Source: an uncultured Prevotellaceae bacterium
Lineage (GTDB): Bacteria; Bacteroidota; Bacteroidia; Bacteroidales; Muribaculaceae
Assembly (NCBI GenBank): GCA_900320245.1
Contig: ONRP01000002.1
Span: forward strand, 1-64,000
DNA length: 64,000 nt
Direction: 5' to 3'
The notes under the pieces were generated by a model, which was not told the origin of the DNA, did no database searches, and saw nothing but the letters and a program-made list of their open reading frames with translations. The position numbers and the translations under genes were made by a program. Numbering within the stretch: position 1 is the stretch's first letter; each line of letters begins with the position of its first letter. Positions 9,340-49,694 of this stretch are shown here, one piece after another.

Positions 9340-9413
9340 CGGGGTGTAGCACAGTTGGTTAGCGCGCCACGTTCGGGACGTGGAGGCCGGAAGTTCGAGT
9401 CTTCTCACCCCGA
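9340..9413 (+). tRNA. tRNA-Pro (anticodon CGG)
   Basis: A full cloverleaf of 74 bases. The acceptor CGGGGTG pairs with CACCCCG, the anticodon stem CCACG/CGTGG encloses TTCGGGA (anticodon CGG), and the T-loop is TTCGAGT. CCA is not encoded. Its last 14 bases are part of the 17-bp phage attachment core, so integration restores an intact 3' end and the gene stays functional. Confidence 0.95.
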
Positions 9414-9416
9414 CTC
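9400..9416. other. attL core (17 bp)
   Basis: TCTTCTCACCCCGACTC, identical to 49678-49694. It covers the 3' part of tRNA-Pro, the usual target of tyrosine integrases. Confidence 0.9.
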
Positions 9417-9471: not shown

Positions 9472-9522
9472 CGGGACAAAATCGGGACAAACCGTTATTG
9501 GCCCTTTGTCAAACAGGTGGCG
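9472..9522. promoter_or_regulatory. Left integrase arm-type sites
   Basis: Two CGGGACAA copies (9472-9479 and 9483-9490, 11 bases apart), TATTGGCCCTTTGTCA (9496-9511) and ACAGGTGGCG (9513-9522). All recur near attR: 49575-49582 and 49586-49593 with the same 11-base step, 49615-49630, and inverted at 49657-49666. Likely binding sites for integrase and accessory proteins. Confidence 0.7.
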
Positions 9523-31484: not shown

Positions 31485-31952
31485 TTATCGCTTAGGAGGG
31501 GTTTGACCCTCGCGGTAGGCTTTTCGTTGCCTGAAGAACATCTGGCGGATGGCTTCCCAGGACTTTTCCTCGGGCTCGATGCCGTGCCGCTCCATCCAGT
31601 CATAGATGCAGTCGGTGATGGGCAGCGAGAGCTTCTCCACCTTGTAGAGGTCATTCCACAGCTGGACACGGAACCTCACCATGATCACATGGGTGAGTAC
31701 CTTCCTGGCATACTCACTGAGCACACACCAGTAGGGTGCAGGTTTCGACTTGAAGTCTGGAATCTCGATGGCAATTTGACCATCCTCGCGCAGCTGGGGC
31801 TCTGCTCCCTCCGGCAACTTGTCCAGCTGCATCTCGAGCACATCATTCTCGGCACTCCCACGGGGAAAGCGCACGACGCCGTTAGCGTCGCCCCAGTCAT
31901 GGAGGCACCATTCGCCGAGATACTTCGGTAGTGTCAGGTAAATGATCATCAT
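31485..31952 (-). CDS. Conserved Bacteroidetes phage protein, first late gene
   Basis: 155 residues from the ATG at 31952; the frame runs far upstream but crosses its own promoter and the repeat region, so that part is not coding. ITDCIYDWMERHGIE and WEAIRQMFFRQRKAYRE near the end, and YLTLPKYLGEWCLHDWGDAN at the start, remind me of a protein recurrent in Bacteroides mobile elements, but no function is known to me. The promoter at 31979-31986 makes it the first gene of the late transcript, so a role early in late expression is conceivable. Confidence 0.7.
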   Translation of the reverse strand: MMIIYLTLPKYLGEWCLHDWGDANGVVRFPRGSAENDVLEMQLDKLPEGAEPQLREDGQIAIEIPDFKSKPAPYWCVLSEYARKVLTHVIMVRFRVQLWNDLYKVEKLSLPITDCIYDWMERHGIEPEEKSWEAIRQMFFRQRKAYREGQTPPKR

Positions 31953-31978
31953 AGCGCACAATACTGATATCGATAGCA

Positions 31979-31986
31979 CAAAGATA
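31979..31986 (-). promoter_or_regulatory. Probable late promoter (-7 box)
   Basis: TATCTTTG on the - strand (CAAAGATA on +) with TTGCA about 22 bases further up, 27 bases before the ATG at 31952. Everything from here to the terminator at 23.3-22.1 kb is tightly spaced, so it could drive the head and packaging genes. Confidence 0.6.
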
Positions 31987-32086
31987 CTAATTTCTTCATA
32001 TTCAGGTGCAAGTAACCGAAACAAAAATGTGCAGAACTTTTTATAAAAGTTTCTACGTGGGGGTGCCTTATATATAGAAAAAAACT

Positions 32087-32285
32087 GTGCAGTTGTACGG
32101 GCTACCCATTTTGAAATATTCAATTCGTTGTGCATCAGTGCGTTAACTTCCGCACGATTTTTGCACGATTTTCGGGCCCCGTACAACTGCACTGTACGTA
32201 CAACTCCGCACTTTTTTTTTCGCAAAATCGTGCGCTTGTAACTTGCTGATTTTCGGCAACTTTTCCCACTTCCGTACAACTGCAC
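32087..32285. repeat. Two interleaved iteron-like repeat families
   Basis: CCGTACAACTGCAC occurs at 32179-32192 and 32272-32285 and inverted at 32087-32100, with a diverged copy at 32197-32211. GCACGATTTT occurs at 32152-32161 and 32163-32172 and inverted at 32224-32233. The segment is gene-free, lies 100-300 bases upstream of the late promoter and contains A/T runs. It looks like a set of protein-binding sites: a replication origin or a late-gene control region. Confidence 0.6.
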
Positions 32286-32294
32286 TCTTTTTTT

Positions 32295-32302
32295 TACCTT
32301 TG
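32295..32302 (+). promoter_or_regulatory. -7 box of a + strand promoter
   Basis: TACCTTTG in a T-rich stretch, 10 bases after iteron copy 32272-32285, which occupies the -33 region. It faces the opposite way to the phage operons. Confidence 0.5.
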
Positions 32303-32331
32303 AAACAAGTAAAAAGTAAAAAAATAAATTT

Positions 32332-32499
32332 ATGAATACACCGCCGACTTGGCGGCTGCTTCGAGCCTTGTTTATGTATGGTAATTCGCCAACATTCTCC
32401 TATACATCATCATGCAGGTTCGGGCGTCGGGCCCCGCTCCCCCTCCATCGAAGGCTTGAGCCAGTACAACGGTACCTGTGCACTATGATATTCGCTTAA
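32332..32499 (+). CDS. Possible 55-residue basic protein (+ strand)
   Basis: ATG 30 bases after the -7 box at 32295-32302, ending TAA at 32497-32499. Starts MNTPPTWRLLRALFMYGNSP and is Arg/Pro-rich, with no known relative. A hairpin at 32564-32604 follows, so promoter, frame and terminator form one unit against the direction of the phage operons. It could equally be a non-coding RNA. Confidence 0.3.
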   Translation: MNTPPTWRLLRALFMYGNSPTFSYTSSCRFGRRAPLPLHRRLEPVQRYLCTMIFA

Positions 32500-32563
32500 A
32501 GTAGGGGTCCGGGGTTCCCGACGGGCAGGAGCCCTGGCATAAAACATAAACTCCCGAAAAAGA

Positions 32564-32604
32564 AAAAGGGCCCCGCGTCATCTCGACGCAAGGCCCGGGC
32601 CTTT
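32564..32604 (-). terminator. Terminator of the small-protein operon
   Basis: AAAGGGCC...CGCGTC and GACGC...GGCCTTT form a GC-rich hairpin. On the - strand it is followed by TTTTTCTTTTTC, an excellent T-run, 33 bases after the stop of the 79-residue gene. On the + strand the tail is weaker. Confidence 0.75.
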
Positions 32605-32636
32605 GTTCAAACTAAAAAATGTCAACAAAAAAAATG

Positions 32637-32876
32637 TTACTGTCGCCTGGCCATCGCCCAACCATGTCGGCCATCAGGGCGATACACGATGCGATATCCG
32701 GCCATCTGCATGAGGGTGGCCACCTCGCCCTCTTGGGGCTCTGCCATGTCCTGGAGCTCGCGCTCTATGGCTTCGGTGGTCTTCAATAGCACGTCCGTGC
32801 CATCCTGGGCGGGTTCAAAGTTCTCCAGATAGGCTGCCAATGCCATTGCAGCCGGTGAAACTTGGTTACTGTCCAT
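32637..32876 (-). CDS. Small protein, last gene of the 34.9-32.6 kb operon
   Basis: 79 residues from MDSNQVSPAAMALAAYLENF; a longer frame upstream overlaps the Cys-rich gene and is not needed. A strong Shine-Dalgarno (GGAAGGAGGTGACC) lies before the ATG. Acidic first half, basic end (GRHGWAMARRQ). No family recognised. Confidence 0.65.
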   Translation of the reverse strand: MDSNQVSPAAMALAAYLENFEPAQDGTDVLLKTTEAIERELQDMAEPQEGEVATLMQMAGYRIVYRPDGRHGWAMARRQ

Positions 32877-33003
32877 GGTCACCTCCTTCCTTGTAGTTGC
32901 AGCCCAGCTGGCGGCTGTTGCAGCTCTTGTCGGGGCAGTCACAGCAGGGGATGTTCTTGGCACAGGGCGGGTAGTTCGCCCACTTACACACTTTGCACGT
33001 CAT
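32866..33003 (-). CDS. Cys-rich 45-residue protein
   Basis: Starts MTCKVCKWANYPPC at 33003 behind AAAGGAGGTAAACA. It has eight cysteines in 45 residues (CxxC, then CCDC and two more), likely a small zinc-binding or zinc-ribbon protein. It overlaps the next gene by 11 bases and the previous one by 20. Its stop codon lies inside the following start region, so the two are coupled. Possibly a host-protein inhibitor, as many small early phage proteins are; that is a guess. Confidence 0.65.
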   Translation of the reverse strand: MTCKVCKWANYPPCAKNIPCCDCPDKSCNSRQLGCNYKEGGDHGQ

Positions 33004-33271
33004 TGTTTACCTCCTTTCTTTTTTGGTTCTCCTTCATCATCTCAATATAGGCACCGATGGCGTCATGCAGCACCTCGAGGTCGCTGATGTCATCGAGCCA
33101 GATGGTATCGTCTGGCACGCTCATGCCATTGTCAACGGGGCTATCGATGTGGATGCGGCATGCCACTGGCACGCTCGTGTCATTGACATCGATGCAGCGC
33201 TCTATCGTGATATTGATGTGGCCACGGCCTTCAAATCGGGTGGCCATAATCTTCAATCCGTCCTCGATCAT
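32984..33271 (-). CDS. Small phage protein of unknown function
   Basis: 95 residues from MIEDGLKIMATRFEGRGHIN; AAAGGAGG precedes the ATG. It overlaps the previous gene by 4 bases. Beta-rich with an acidic middle (DDTIWLDDISDLEVLHD) and a helical end. No family recognised. Confidence 0.65.
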   Translation of the reverse strand: MIEDGLKIMATRFEGRGHINITIERCIDVNDTSVPVACRIHIDSPVDNGMSVPDDTIWLDDISDLEVLHDAIGAYIEMMKENQKRKEVNNDVQSV

Positions 33272-33549
33272 ACAGCAACAGCCTCCTTTCCGGCGGGCGA
33301 CATGCCCTTGTAGTCCTCGTTGATAGTCCAATAGTCACCGGTCCAATTATGGAAGCAGCGGTTACCCATGAAGCTGCCCAGGTGGTCCCAGGTGTTCAGC
33401 GGTTCGTTGAAGGCTCGCACATTGATCTGGTGACGCTGGCTGGTGGCCATGGTGTCGCCCATGCGCCGGATCTCCTCAAAGGTGCAGTTGGCGTCGGCCA
33501 CCACCTTGCGCCCATTCAGCAGCTGGAAGTGATATCTCTTGGCACTCAT
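33268..33549 (-). CDS. Small phage protein of unknown function
   Basis: 93 residues from MSAKRYHFQLLNGRKVVADA, preceded by GAAAGGAGGTGCGCG. It overlaps the previous gene by 4 bases. Looks like a small folded protein with several Trp/Phe (TWDHLGSFMGNRCFHNWTGD). No family recognised. Confidence 0.65.
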   Translation of the reverse strand: MSAKRYHFQLLNGRKVVADANCTFEEIRRMGDTMATSQRHQINVRAFNEPLNTWDHLGSFMGNRCFHNWTGDYWTINEDYKGMSPAGKEAVAV

Positions 33550-33824: not shown

Positions 33825-34111
33825 GACTCACCTCCTTCCTCATCGGGGACCAGCAGCAACAAGTCATGGCCGGTGGTCACATTATTTCTAACATCACGCT
33901 TGCCATTGAGCGTCCATTGCATGGCTACTTCTTGATCGCCAAATTCAACAAGGCCCACAACAGGGAAGTCTCCCTTGGCATTGAAGACCAGAAGCCTCAC
34001 TTTGCGGAATTCTAAAGTCCTTACTTCGCCCTTGATGACCTCGTGCTTGATATGCCTTGCCATCTTGACATTAAAGGGGATTTCCGTTAACGGCTTTTCA
34101 AACATACTCAT
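33821..34111 (-). CDS. Small phage protein of unknown function
   Basis: 96 residues from MSMFEKPLTEIPFNVKMARH; a second ATG follows two codons later. AAGGAGGTGCTGAGGT precedes it. Beta-rich, ending in acidic EEGGES, whose codons encode the next gene's Shine-Dalgarno. No family recognised. Confidence 0.65.
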   Translation of the reverse strand: MSMFEKPLTEIPFNVKMARHIKHEVIKGEVRTLEFRKVRLLVFNAKGDFPVVGLVEFGDQEVAMQWTLNGKRDVRNNVTTGHDLLLLVPDEEGGES

Positions 34112-34650
34112 ACCTCAGCACCTCCTTCCTCTTGCTGGCGTGCCTGGCGGTTCTGCTCGACGGCTGCCAGGTACTGCTGATGAAGTTCATCAGCCTGGTT
34201 GATGTAGTGCTTGTTGATGGCCCGGCGTTCCTCCTGGTTCTCCTTGCACCGGTTGTCGAAGGCTGCCTCAGCATCATTCAAGGCAGTCACCATCTGACGC
34301 TCAAGGCCAATGACCTGCTTATGCAGGGCCTCGATGCGGTTGGTGAAGTCCTCAAGGTCGCCCATGCCGGTGGTGTCGGCATCGACGCTCAAGGCGTGGC
34401 GCAGGTTGGCCCGCTGATCATGAAGGTGGGCAATCTGAGTCTTGAGGTTGAGGCGGCGCAGGCTGAAATCCTCCTTGATGCGGATGCGCTCCATGCGGTA
34501 GGAGGTCTTGATGATCTTGTGTCGCTCATCCACCTGGGCCAGCTCGTCTTCCTTAGCCTGGCGCAGGTCCTTCAGTTTGCGTGAATACTGAGCCTCGAGT
34601 TGCTGCGCACGCATGGCAGCGTCCGAAAGGATGGGATTGCCGGTCATCAT
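34108..34650 (-). CDS. Coiled-coil phage protein
   Basis: 180 residues, nearly all helical and strongly charged with heptad-like repeats (RRLNLKTQIAHLHDQRANLR, TNRIEALHKQVIGLERQM). Probably an elongated dimer. A good Shine-Dalgarno (AAAGGAGGTGACC) lies before the ATG. It overlaps the membrane-protein gene upstream by 4 bases. Function unknown. Confidence 0.65.
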   Translation of the reverse strand: MMTGNPILSDAAMRAQQLEAQYSRKLKDLRQAKEDELAQVDERHKIIKTSYRMERIRIKEDFSLRRLNLKTQIAHLHDQRANLRHALSVDADTTGMGDLEDFTNRIEALHKQVIGLERQMVTALNDAEAAFDNRCKENQEERRAINKHYINQADELHQQYLAAVEQNRQARQQEEGGAEV

Positions 34651-34901
34651 AACTGGTCACCTCCTTTCGCAATACTGATGCAAAGCATGACGGACAGATG
34701 GCCCACCCAGGCGAGGATCGCCACGATGGTGAGGTCCATGTGCTGCTCGCTGATGTAATAGGCAAGCAGGCACACCAGGGCGACAGCCGCCAGCAGGATG
34801 TTGACTTGCAGGGTTAAAAACTTCAGCACGATGTGACCCAGTGCTGTAGCCAGAGCTTCATAGCTCTCACTCTCTCGGTTGATTTGAATTGTGTTGTTCA
34901 T
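34647..34901 (-). CDS. Small membrane protein, first gene of the operon
   Basis: 84 residues from MNNTIQINRESESYEALATA. Two hydrophobic segments (LQVNILLAAVALVCLLAYYI and LTIVAILAWVGHLSVMLCIS) suggest a two-pass inner-membrane protein. The frame is open upstream to 35150, but that part is the leader with the repeats, so I chose the ATG at 34901. Copy 3 of the leader repeat ends 1 base before this ATG, so its translation could be gated by leader folding. Possible roles include superinfection exclusion or lysis control; nothing proves either. Confidence 0.6.
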   Translation of the reverse strand: MNNTIQINRESESYEALATALGHIVLKFLTLQVNILLAAVALVCLLAYYISEQHMDLTIVAILAWVGHLSVMLCISIAKGGDQL

Positions 34902-34902
34902 A

Positions 34903-35114
34903 ACACTTGTTGGTTGTTTGGCTATGGGTGATATAAAGAAACGGCCACCCGTTCCGTTGTCGCCAAACAACCAACAAGTGTCATCCCGAGGGAGCGCTTT
35001 ATTGATCCGGAAGGGCAGCCTTTCTATGGGCTGACTCGAGCACAAAAAAAAGCCCGAGGTTTTCGAGCGTATCCGACGCTCCACGGCGATGACTAACATC
35101 GTTGGTTGTTTGGC
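34903..35114 (-). ncRNA. Leader with three mutually complementary segments (candidate RNA switch)
   Basis: On the - strand transcript, copy 1 GCCAAACAACCAAC (35114-35101), copy 2 ACACTTGTTGGTTGTTTGGC (34981-34962) and copy 3 GCCAAACAACCAACAAGTGT (34922-34903) appear in that order. Copy 2 can pair perfectly with copy 1 (14 bp) or copy 3 (20 bp), but not both. Copy 3 ends 1 base before the ATG at 34901, so pairing 2-3 would hide the initiation region and pairing 1-2 would free it. A GAGCGT/ACGCTC hairpin and a run of nine T's lie between copies 1 and 2. Confidence 0.5.
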
Positions 35115-35119
35115 ATCGG

Positions 35120-35127
35120 CAAATGTA
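35120..35127 (-). promoter_or_regulatory. -7 box of the small-protein operon promoter
   Basis: TACATTTG on the - strand (CAAATGTA on +), touching the operator at 35126-35141. The same box and operator pairing is seen at 49144-49159. Confidence 0.55.
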
Positions 35128-35141
35128 CAACGCCCGTTGTA
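35126..35141. promoter_or_regulatory. Putative repressor operator O1
   Basis: TACAACGCCCGTTGTA, a dyad with TACAA/TTGTA arms and a 6-base centre, overlapping the -7 box. The neighbouring GTTGTAAATGTACAA (35136-35150) is identical to the reverse of 49135-49149 in the repressor control region. Confidence 0.6.
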
Positions 35142-35276
35142 AATGTACAAGCCAAAACGCCAGAAAATTGCCGAAATATGTTTTATAACATAAAAATCGG
35201 CAAGAATTCCGTGAAATTCCGCCGATTTTCCGCGAGTTTTCCGCGAAAACTACCGATTAAGCAGGTTTGAATCTGC

Positions 35277-49233: not shown

Positions 49234-49602
49234 ATGTTACATATCGGAAACGAAATCAAAAAGGCAATCGAGGAAAACCATCTTGTTAAGCAGGATGTGG
49301 CCGAGAAATTAGGTGTATCACCCACCTATTTAACTCGGATGTTCAAGTTGGAAGACATGCGTTGTTCAAGTCTTGACAAAGTATGTAAAGTGATTGGACT
49401 TTCAGCAGCGCACATCTTTGAACAGGAAAGTGCAGTTAACGTCCAGAATGTTTCGGCCAATTCATTTATTGGTGATGCCAGAGCGGAGCTGAACATCACT
49501 CCTGGAGAGGTCGCCACGCTGCGCGAGCTGCTTGCAGAAAAGGAGCGTACCATCCAAATCCTCCTCCAGCAAATCGGGACAATAACGGGACAAGATGGGT
49601 GA
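49234..49602 (+). CDS. XRE-family phage repressor
   Basis: 122 residues. Residues 1-55 are an XRE/Cro-type HTH (GNEIKKAIEENHLVKQDVAE, KLGVSPTYLTRMFKL). The remaining part is a short helix pair (GEVATLRELLAEKERTIQIL) for dimerisation. It is transcribed away from the early genes, the usual layout of a prophage repressor. No protease (S24) domain, so induction by RecA cleavage is unlikely. Its 3' coding end contains the right arm-type integrase sites. Confidence 0.8.
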   Translation: MLHIGNEIKKAIEENHLVKQDVAEKLGVSPTYLTRMFKLEDMRCSSLDKVCKVIGLSAAHIFEQESAVNVQNVSANSFIGDARAELNITPGEVATLRELLAEKERTIQILLQQIGTITGQDG

Positions 49603-49677: not shown

Positions 49678-49694
49678 TCTTCTCACCCCGACTC
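49678..49694. other. attR core (17 bp)
   Basis: TCTTCTCACCCCGACTC, identical to attL at 9400-9416; the remaining copy of the tRNA-Pro 3' end. Confidence 0.9.

Follow-up and report, generated by a model that had tools for sequence, protein, structure and literature searches.

The window, a stretch of 64,000 nucleotides (positions 1-64,000 of the forward strand of contig ONRP01000002.1, assembly GCA_900320245.1, from an uncultured Prevotellaceae bacterium), contains on its minus strand a leader with three segments of one sequence or its complement, placed directly before a small phage gene. This raises the question of what a phage operon may gain from a leader RNA whose middle segment can pair with either of its neighbours.

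The leader lies in an integrated tailed phage, the span of which (9400-49694) was taken from 17-bp att repeats. The direct repeat TCTTCTCACCCCGACTC is present at 9400-9416, in the 3' end of a tRNA-Pro, and at 49678-49694, the two copies being 40 kb apart and taken as the prophage ends. The integrase at 9498 adjoins the tRNA-Pro. Terminase, portal and head protease were recognized in the prophage by PHROG matches, together with the phage's own HTH regulator gene (49234-49602, PHROG transcriptional regulator). The elements of the leader and of the operon are the following.

35120-35150 (-): putative promoter of the Bacteroidota type, read from the sequence, with TTG at 35148-35150 and the -7 box TACATTTG at 35120-35127
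35101-35114 (-): copy 1 (GCCAAACAACCAAC), close to where the transcript is predicted to begin
35088-35100 (-): hairpin A (GATG/CATC), for which RNAalifold, run on 22 leaders, shows changes in both of its sides
35075-35081 (-): D1 (GAGCGTC), which can pair with D2 or, at long range, with D3
35044-35068 (-): T1, terminator-like, a GCTCGA/TCGGGC hairpin and eight T
35008-35020 (-): E1 (GGCTGCCCTTCCG), 5' arm of the terminator-like helix T2
34992-34997 (-): D3 (GCGCTC), partner of D1
34962-34981 (-): copy 2 and its extension (ACACTTGTTGGTTGTTTGGC), the hub
34935-34956 (-): E2 (CGGAACGGGTGGCC) and a T-rich tract, which supply T2 with its 3' arm and its tail; in the window this tract is interrupted
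34926-34930 (-): E3 (CACCC), alternative partner of E2, read from the sequence
34903-34922 (-): copy 3 and its extension (GCCAAACAACCAACAAGTGT), one base ahead of the start codon
34647-34901 (-): gene 1, 84 residues, with a long hydrophobic stretch seen by eye; AAAGGAGGT lies at its end, which overlaps gene 2
34108-34650 (-): gene 2, 180 residues
32637-34111 (-): further small genes of the operon, including that at 32637-32876

The three copies reported by the initial annotation are exact (copy 1 at 35101-35114, copy 2 at 34962-34975, copy 3 at 34909-34922, minus strand). Pairing of copy 1 with copy 2 over 14 bp was confirmed, as was that of copy 2 with copy 3 over an uninterrupted 20 bp (23 nt at 96%), and the 20-nt copy 3 does stop at 34903, one base ahead of the ATG at 34901. 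Copies 1 and 2 do enclose the GAGCGT/ACGCTC hairpin; the T run, given as nine T, counts eight. The initial proposal of a phage operon leader with attenuator-like parts is supported, the phage being a prophage. The 14-mer with up to three mismatches has eight matches in the window (chance mean 5.85 for all eight), among which only the three copies are without mismatch. With up to one mismatch, only the three copies match in the whole assembly (90% complete), leaving no further site as another target of the copies; a reversed control pattern gave two matches. Both strands were folded, as had been recommended. The RNA of the gene strand has a z-score of -5.06 and that of the opposite strand one of -3.67, and none of 200 shuffles was as stable in either case. 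The opposite strand is also stable because of the 20-bp inverted repeat, and folding energy by itself therefore cannot choose the strand.

The first sign that pairing is kept, and not sequence, came from a second leader in the window's own assembly (G000:C20). It consists of GCTGTAATCAAC, its complement and GCTGTAATCAAC again before an ATG, in the same layout with a different copy sequence. A search of 101 genomes of the genus, own included, placed the gene 1 protein at 19 sites in 16 of them, and four viral contigs encode it as well. All 23 leaders found by this protein show the three segments; in L004, L007, L009, L010 and L025, copy 1 is recognizable as such only if G-U pairs or a mismatch are allowed. 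From 21 protein-found leaders a covariance model (R1) was built that covers the core and excludes the copies on either side of it. It matched 19 of the 101 genus genomes and 56 of 397 genomes of a family sample, in 13 of 30 genera (own included). A second model, R2, matched 9 of 393 genomes of an order sample (own included). Six of its eight matches in other order-sample genomes score at least 38 bits, and the two lower ones are without a triple. The six are L305-L308, with full triples, L310, cut by the contig end after copy 2, and L309, which is partial. In a phylum sample, 5 of 296 genomes matched (own included), the other four at no more than 31.5 bits and without a triple. The genomes are samples throughout, and many records are metagenome bins.

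The triple is present in two unannotated phage records from the human gut, MT836146.1 and MT836345.1. Among the named records listed, convincing triples belong to Muribaculaceae, Barnesiella and other Bacteroidales; the 10-letter rule was also passed by a small number of records from other phyla, with AT-rich matches that look like chance. Leader DNA searched against phages gave no match for two of three leaders and two records for the third, and one leader searched against plasmids gave no match. With cmscan, the window leader and six other loci had no match at the gathering score among 4227 Rfam families; only sub-threshold chance matches appeared at E ≤ 5.

A pattern search yielded at least 201 matches that were checked (9 at edges, 9 duplicates), at least 47 of them with a copy 3 match of at least 10. 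Twenty-five of those loci were taken to the model search, leaving out places already included, chance-looking AT-rich ones and at least one that looks true (L238); five of the 25 (L160, L220, L230, L239, L244) were without a model match. In all, 84 distinct leaders were compared, five identical to others having been removed beforehand. Three model matches that re-read places under another locus were left out, L005 and L023 were added, and L008, whose core is deleted, was excluded. As 17 of the 84 leaders were pre-selected on copy 3, unbiased counts use the other 67 (22 found by protein, 45 by the core model). The excluded L008 (G064:C31, 325-455) is a natural internal deletion from D1 to E1, removing T1 and the 5' arm of T2 and retaining the three copies.

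Pairings were scored with +1 per Watson-Crick or G-U pair and -2 per mismatch. For the 67 leaders whose discovery did not involve the copies, both pairings score 11 or more in 65, and in the remaining two it is copy 3 that scores lower; all 67 reach 11 with copy 1 and 9 with copy 3. The copy 1:copy 2 score is at least 11 in 84/84 leaders. When partners were taken from other leaders, 11 was reached in 131 of 994 trials for copy 1 and 84 of 994 for copy 3, that is in 8-13% of trials. A score of 14 was reached by own partners in 74/84 (copy 1) and 78/84 (copy 3) leaders, versus 21/994 and 20/994 across leaders. In a later held-out set, 19 of 22 loci pass the 11/9 rule (cross-locus 29/171 and 47/171). 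The triple is visible by eye in the held-out misses L317, which has a bulge, and L340, where the model end was misplaced. In L323 (310-411), the copy 1:copy 2 pairing is kept and there is no copy 3.

The copies themselves vary, with 79 distinct 16-mers among the 84 leaders. Over 13 columns and 82 distinct rows, in a register chosen to maximise pairing, 94.7% and 96.4% of the cells of the two pairings are paired, versus 50.9% and 51.5% with shuffled partners. Every one of the 13 columns has double changes (443 cells in the first pairing, 431 in the second), and in 500 shuffles neither these counts nor the paired fractions were attained. The variety of pair types, in contrast, was within the shuffle range (51 versus a mean of 46.4 and a maximum of 52; 46 versus 44.7 and 52). 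Relatives thus vary all three copies jointly, keep the pairings and lose the reading frame, which is the reverse of the outcome named at the outset as speaking against a switch. The whole-leader alignment by MAFFT misregistered the copies, which were then aligned by register in a script; RNAalifold recovered neither pairing because the MAFFT alignment had the copies out of register.

The direction of the changes identifies the molecule. Deviations from perfect complementarity in the 67 leaders comprise, for copy 1, 45 that keep a wobble pair, no opposite transition and 9 transversions and, for copy 3, 31, one and two, respectively. As the deviations retain G-U pairs on the gene-sense strand, the pairing is RNA:RNA. 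Judged from these substitutions, selection acts on the RNA of the gene direction to form copy 1:copy 2 and, as a mutually exclusive alternative, copy 2:copy 3.

A coding role for the leader itself had also been considered. The frame is indeed open in the window, back to the TTG at 35150. It is open through copy 1 in 6 of 84 leaders, and leader lengths fall in all three classes modulo 3, so that this role was rejected.

Up to five leaders are present per genome, viral contigs being counted as genomes in comparisons within genomes. On one strand of L077 (1183-1631), two leaders with different addresses lie 346 bp apart, start to start. In G139:C11, four leaders with unrelated copies precede nearly identical pairs of genes 1 and 2. 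Among the 84 leaders, a copy is shared in 0/39 pairs within genomes and in 29/3447 pairs between genomes. With core identity of at least 0.85 the figures are 0/15 and 13/93, a difference that is not significant (Fisher p = 0.13). Twelve within-genome pairs with gene DNA at least 90% identical average 95% identity for the gene, 89% for the core and 61% for copy 2, and copy 2 of unrelated leaders averages 53%. Rapid change of the copies is evident from these comparisons. Between genomes, pairs with gene DNA identity of at least 0.9 share a copy in 0/7 cases, with a mean copy identity of 0.56. Since cassettes with like gene DNA differ between genomes too, the divergence is not special to co-residence; this control speaks against co-residence as its cause, and the argument for private addresses drawn from such identities is weak. 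L005 and L012 have identical cores and copies 2 with gene DNA only 68% alike, and leaders seem to move as units.

Other parts of the leader recur. Just 5' of copy 1, TAnnTTTG is found in 76/84 leaders, at a distance of 1-4 nt in 71 of the 76, and TTG or TTT lies 17-23 nt upstream of this box in 75 of the 84; both counts are without a shuffled control. The T1 hairpin has at least 5 bp (5-8 bp) in 73/84 leaders and at least six T of eight in 82/84, again without a shuffled control; the stretch from copy 1 to T1 in the window folds like its shuffles (z = -0.80, 40/200). The E1:E2 duplex reaches -21.2 kcal/mol or better in 84/84 leaders (mean -27.7 kcal/mol, without a shuffled control), in many compensated sequences, and copy 2 lies between its arms in the 84 leaders. 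Fewer than four T are found in the 8 nt after the T2 duplex in 21/84, the duplex sometimes including part of the tract. E2 and E3 share an exact 5-mer complement in 67/84 leaders versus 29/398 cross-locus comparisons. By this scoring the window leader counts among the 17 misses, with a GGGTG:CACCC pairing that is one base off register. The alternatives E1:E2 and E2:E3 look like a second choice. For D1:D3, the outer three pairs are well kept over 82 distinct rows and the inner four are broken in 23, 30, 21 and 49. Together with two other core helices, 81.7% of cells are paired, a value reached by 0/500 shuffles, the alignment having been fitted to the model. Shifting the structure by +3 leaves the number of double-change pairs unchanged (9).

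Copy 3 is tied to the start of gene 1. In 81/84 leaders no more than 5 nt separate the start codon from the end of the copy 3 helix, and no GGAG-type site precedes gene 1 (0/83 leaders). The stop of gene 1 overlaps the next ATG (ATGA) in 64/83 leaders; GGAGG near the end of gene 1, counted separately, is also found in 64/83. The gene 1/gene 2 junction thus has the sequence hallmark of coupling between a first and a second reading frame. An open reading frame of at least 45 residues follows downstream, in the orientation of the core, in 83/84 leaders, and the remaining one runs off its locus.

The products of the operon give little indication of function. The proteins of genes 1 and 2 belong to no PHROGs or Pfam family at E ≤ 0.001, the first downstream proteins have weak matches only, at E ≤ 1, and gene 2 and an 84-residue cassette protein had no protein match in a phage collection. 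Across leaders, gene 1 comes in several kinds; by eye these seem unrelated, and some of them lack a hydrophobic stretch. A run of small genes at 31485-33549 (minus strand), without family matches and some of them overlapping, lies between the first operon genes and the head genes. The gene at 32637-32876 (minus strand) encodes a 79-residue protein of a small family that recurs in leader cassettes of related phages. Its predicted model has a pLDDT of 88, with two uncharacterised siphovirus proteins as the nearest BFVD matches and nothing in the PDB at E ≤ 0.001; the author's reading of the model is winged-helix-like.

The reading preferred here, with a probability of about 0.47, is that of a self-addressed riboregulator that times translation of a small-gene operon of the phage or prophage. 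Folding with pseudoknots left out predicts copy 1:copy 2 in 84/84 transcripts that end at copy 2. In the full leader, copy 2:copy 3 is predicted in 70/84, and 14/84 remain with copy 1:copy 2. E1:E2 crosses copy 1:copy 2. Switching of the leader is predicted from this folding: copy 1:copy 2 would form first and be replaced by copy 2:copy 3 on completion of the leader, shutting the start codon. This closed form would cover the start of gene 1, which is without a Shine-Dalgarno-like site. Many transcripts would end at T1 or T2, and the T1 product would be a small RNA of approximately 75-80 nt with copy 1 free at its 5' end. By taking copy 2, copy 1 would free copy 3 and open the start codon, in cis on fresh mRNA or in trans as the small RNA. 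Trans action, and the benefit of it, we infer. Copy 2:copy 3 being the longer of the two helices, opening in trans would not be favoured at equilibrium. A cassette would respond to its own copy sequence alone, hence without cross-talk among paralogous cassettes or co-resident phages. A stronger version, to which rather less credence is given, is a family of private-address switches, in which the small RNA of a cassette would unlock its own mRNA only, many near-identical cassettes in one cell would be mutually deaf, expression would follow the dose of the single cassette, and an address would be selected to differ from all others in the cell.

The simplest reading dispenses with a small RNA acting in trans. 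Copy 1:copy 2 would briefly open fresh mRNA, or steer T2, copy 2:copy 3 would close it, and the copies would diverge under the pairing constraint alone. For such a timer both partners are on one transcript and the predicted folding path suffices. With gene DNA identity of at least 0.9, copy identity is moreover similar between genomes (0.56, n = 7) and within them (0.61, n = 12). However, it does not account for the speed at which the copies change together (gene 95%, core 89% and copy 2 61% in the 12 within-genome pairs), and it leaves unexplained a terminator-like hairpin after a 5' segment that a short RNA would leave free. We regard this timer as rather improbable.

An immunity function like that of P4 CI or P1 C4 is less probable still. 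An RNA ended at T2, with copy 2 in the E1:E2 loop, would silence copies 1 and 3 of the same phage or of an incoming homotypic one, and the sequence classes would be immunity groups. The position of copy 2 between the E1:E2 arms in 84 leaders fits this, as do the differences between co-resident leaders (0/39) and the order of segments, which is that of the P4 leader as described in PMC4825925. Silencing in trans is weakened, though, because copy 1 would cover copy 2 within one RNA ended at T2 unless this is processed, and closure of copy 3 is already possible in cis. Several leaders per phage with small downstream genes are unlike one immunity region, and the phage encodes its own HTH regulator (49234-49602).

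Start-proximal pairing is typical of type I toxin mRNAs, and the long hydrophobic stretch seen by eye in gene 1 of the window would suit a small membrane toxin silenced by its own leader. This is very improbable, as the kinds of gene 1 look unrelated, some lacking such a stretch, and gene 1 is mostly joined to gene 2 by its Shine-Dalgarno-like end (64/83). Repeats acting as DNA, either operators of a phage protein or inverted repeats of an invertible segment, would agree with the exact copies of the window and have the least chance of all, being largely contradicted by the one-directional changes that keep G-U pairs, by the constant orientation of the downstream reading frame of at least 45 residues (83/84) and by the 79 distinct 16-mers in 84 leaders, which one protein could hardly read. 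In a check for an invertible promoter, core and following reading frame had the same orientation in 83/84 cases, and the segment was not found in both orientations.

The self-addressed riboregulator would be of interest on several counts. The leader has no Rfam match, no description of it was found in the open-access literature, and it resides in phages of a dominant gut order. Its three segments vary jointly while the rest is stable, providing dozens of natural addresses on one RNA design. If action in trans is true, these would be a natural library of riboregulators of the same kind, and phages would have a new means of separating their accessory genes. The leader also opens RNA-based specificity among co-resident prophages to direct testing.

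Several known systems resemble parts of this leader. Transcription attenuators have mutually exclusive hairpins and terminator-like hairpins with T runs. The leader shares such terminator-like elements and has alternative helices that overlap; unlike in attenuators, no leader peptide or ligand was found, and the chooser is a repeated, variable sequence. In IsrK of the Salmonella prophage Gifsy-1, as described in PMC4825925, one promoter yields two RNAs, one short and terminated, the other a read-through mRNA closed to translation, the leader has alternative pairings, the first small reading frame is coupled to the next gene, and the short IsrK was found by experiment to open its own read-through mRNA. 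The predicted anatomy of the present leader matches this, likewise in a prophage. IsrK has an Rfam family, and C4 is among the Rfam families as well. The present leader, in contrast to IsrK, has no Rfam match, comprises three segments of one sequence or its complement and two terminator-like elements, and occurs as several leaders per genome with different sequences; its action in trans is one that we infer.

In the P4 CI leader, the middle RNA is complementary to seqA upstream and seqC downstream, as described in PMC4825925. A middle segment complementary on both sides is also present here. The P4 CI RNA, processed and containing the middle segment, terminates transcription and gives immunity, whereas here copy 3 is at the start codon, the segments are hypervariable and several leaders are present in one genome. 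The C4 RNA of P1 and P7 is a phage antisense RNA with a complementary region near a ribosome binding site and confers sequence-specific heteroimmunity (PMC12197685). The present leader differs from C4 in matching none of the 4227 Rfam families by cmscan, and its mechanism is predicted. HMP2_4078 is a candidate RNA of Bacteroidetes near phage domains (PMC8040213). By analogy, the best reading is that the leader would work like IsrK or P4 CI.
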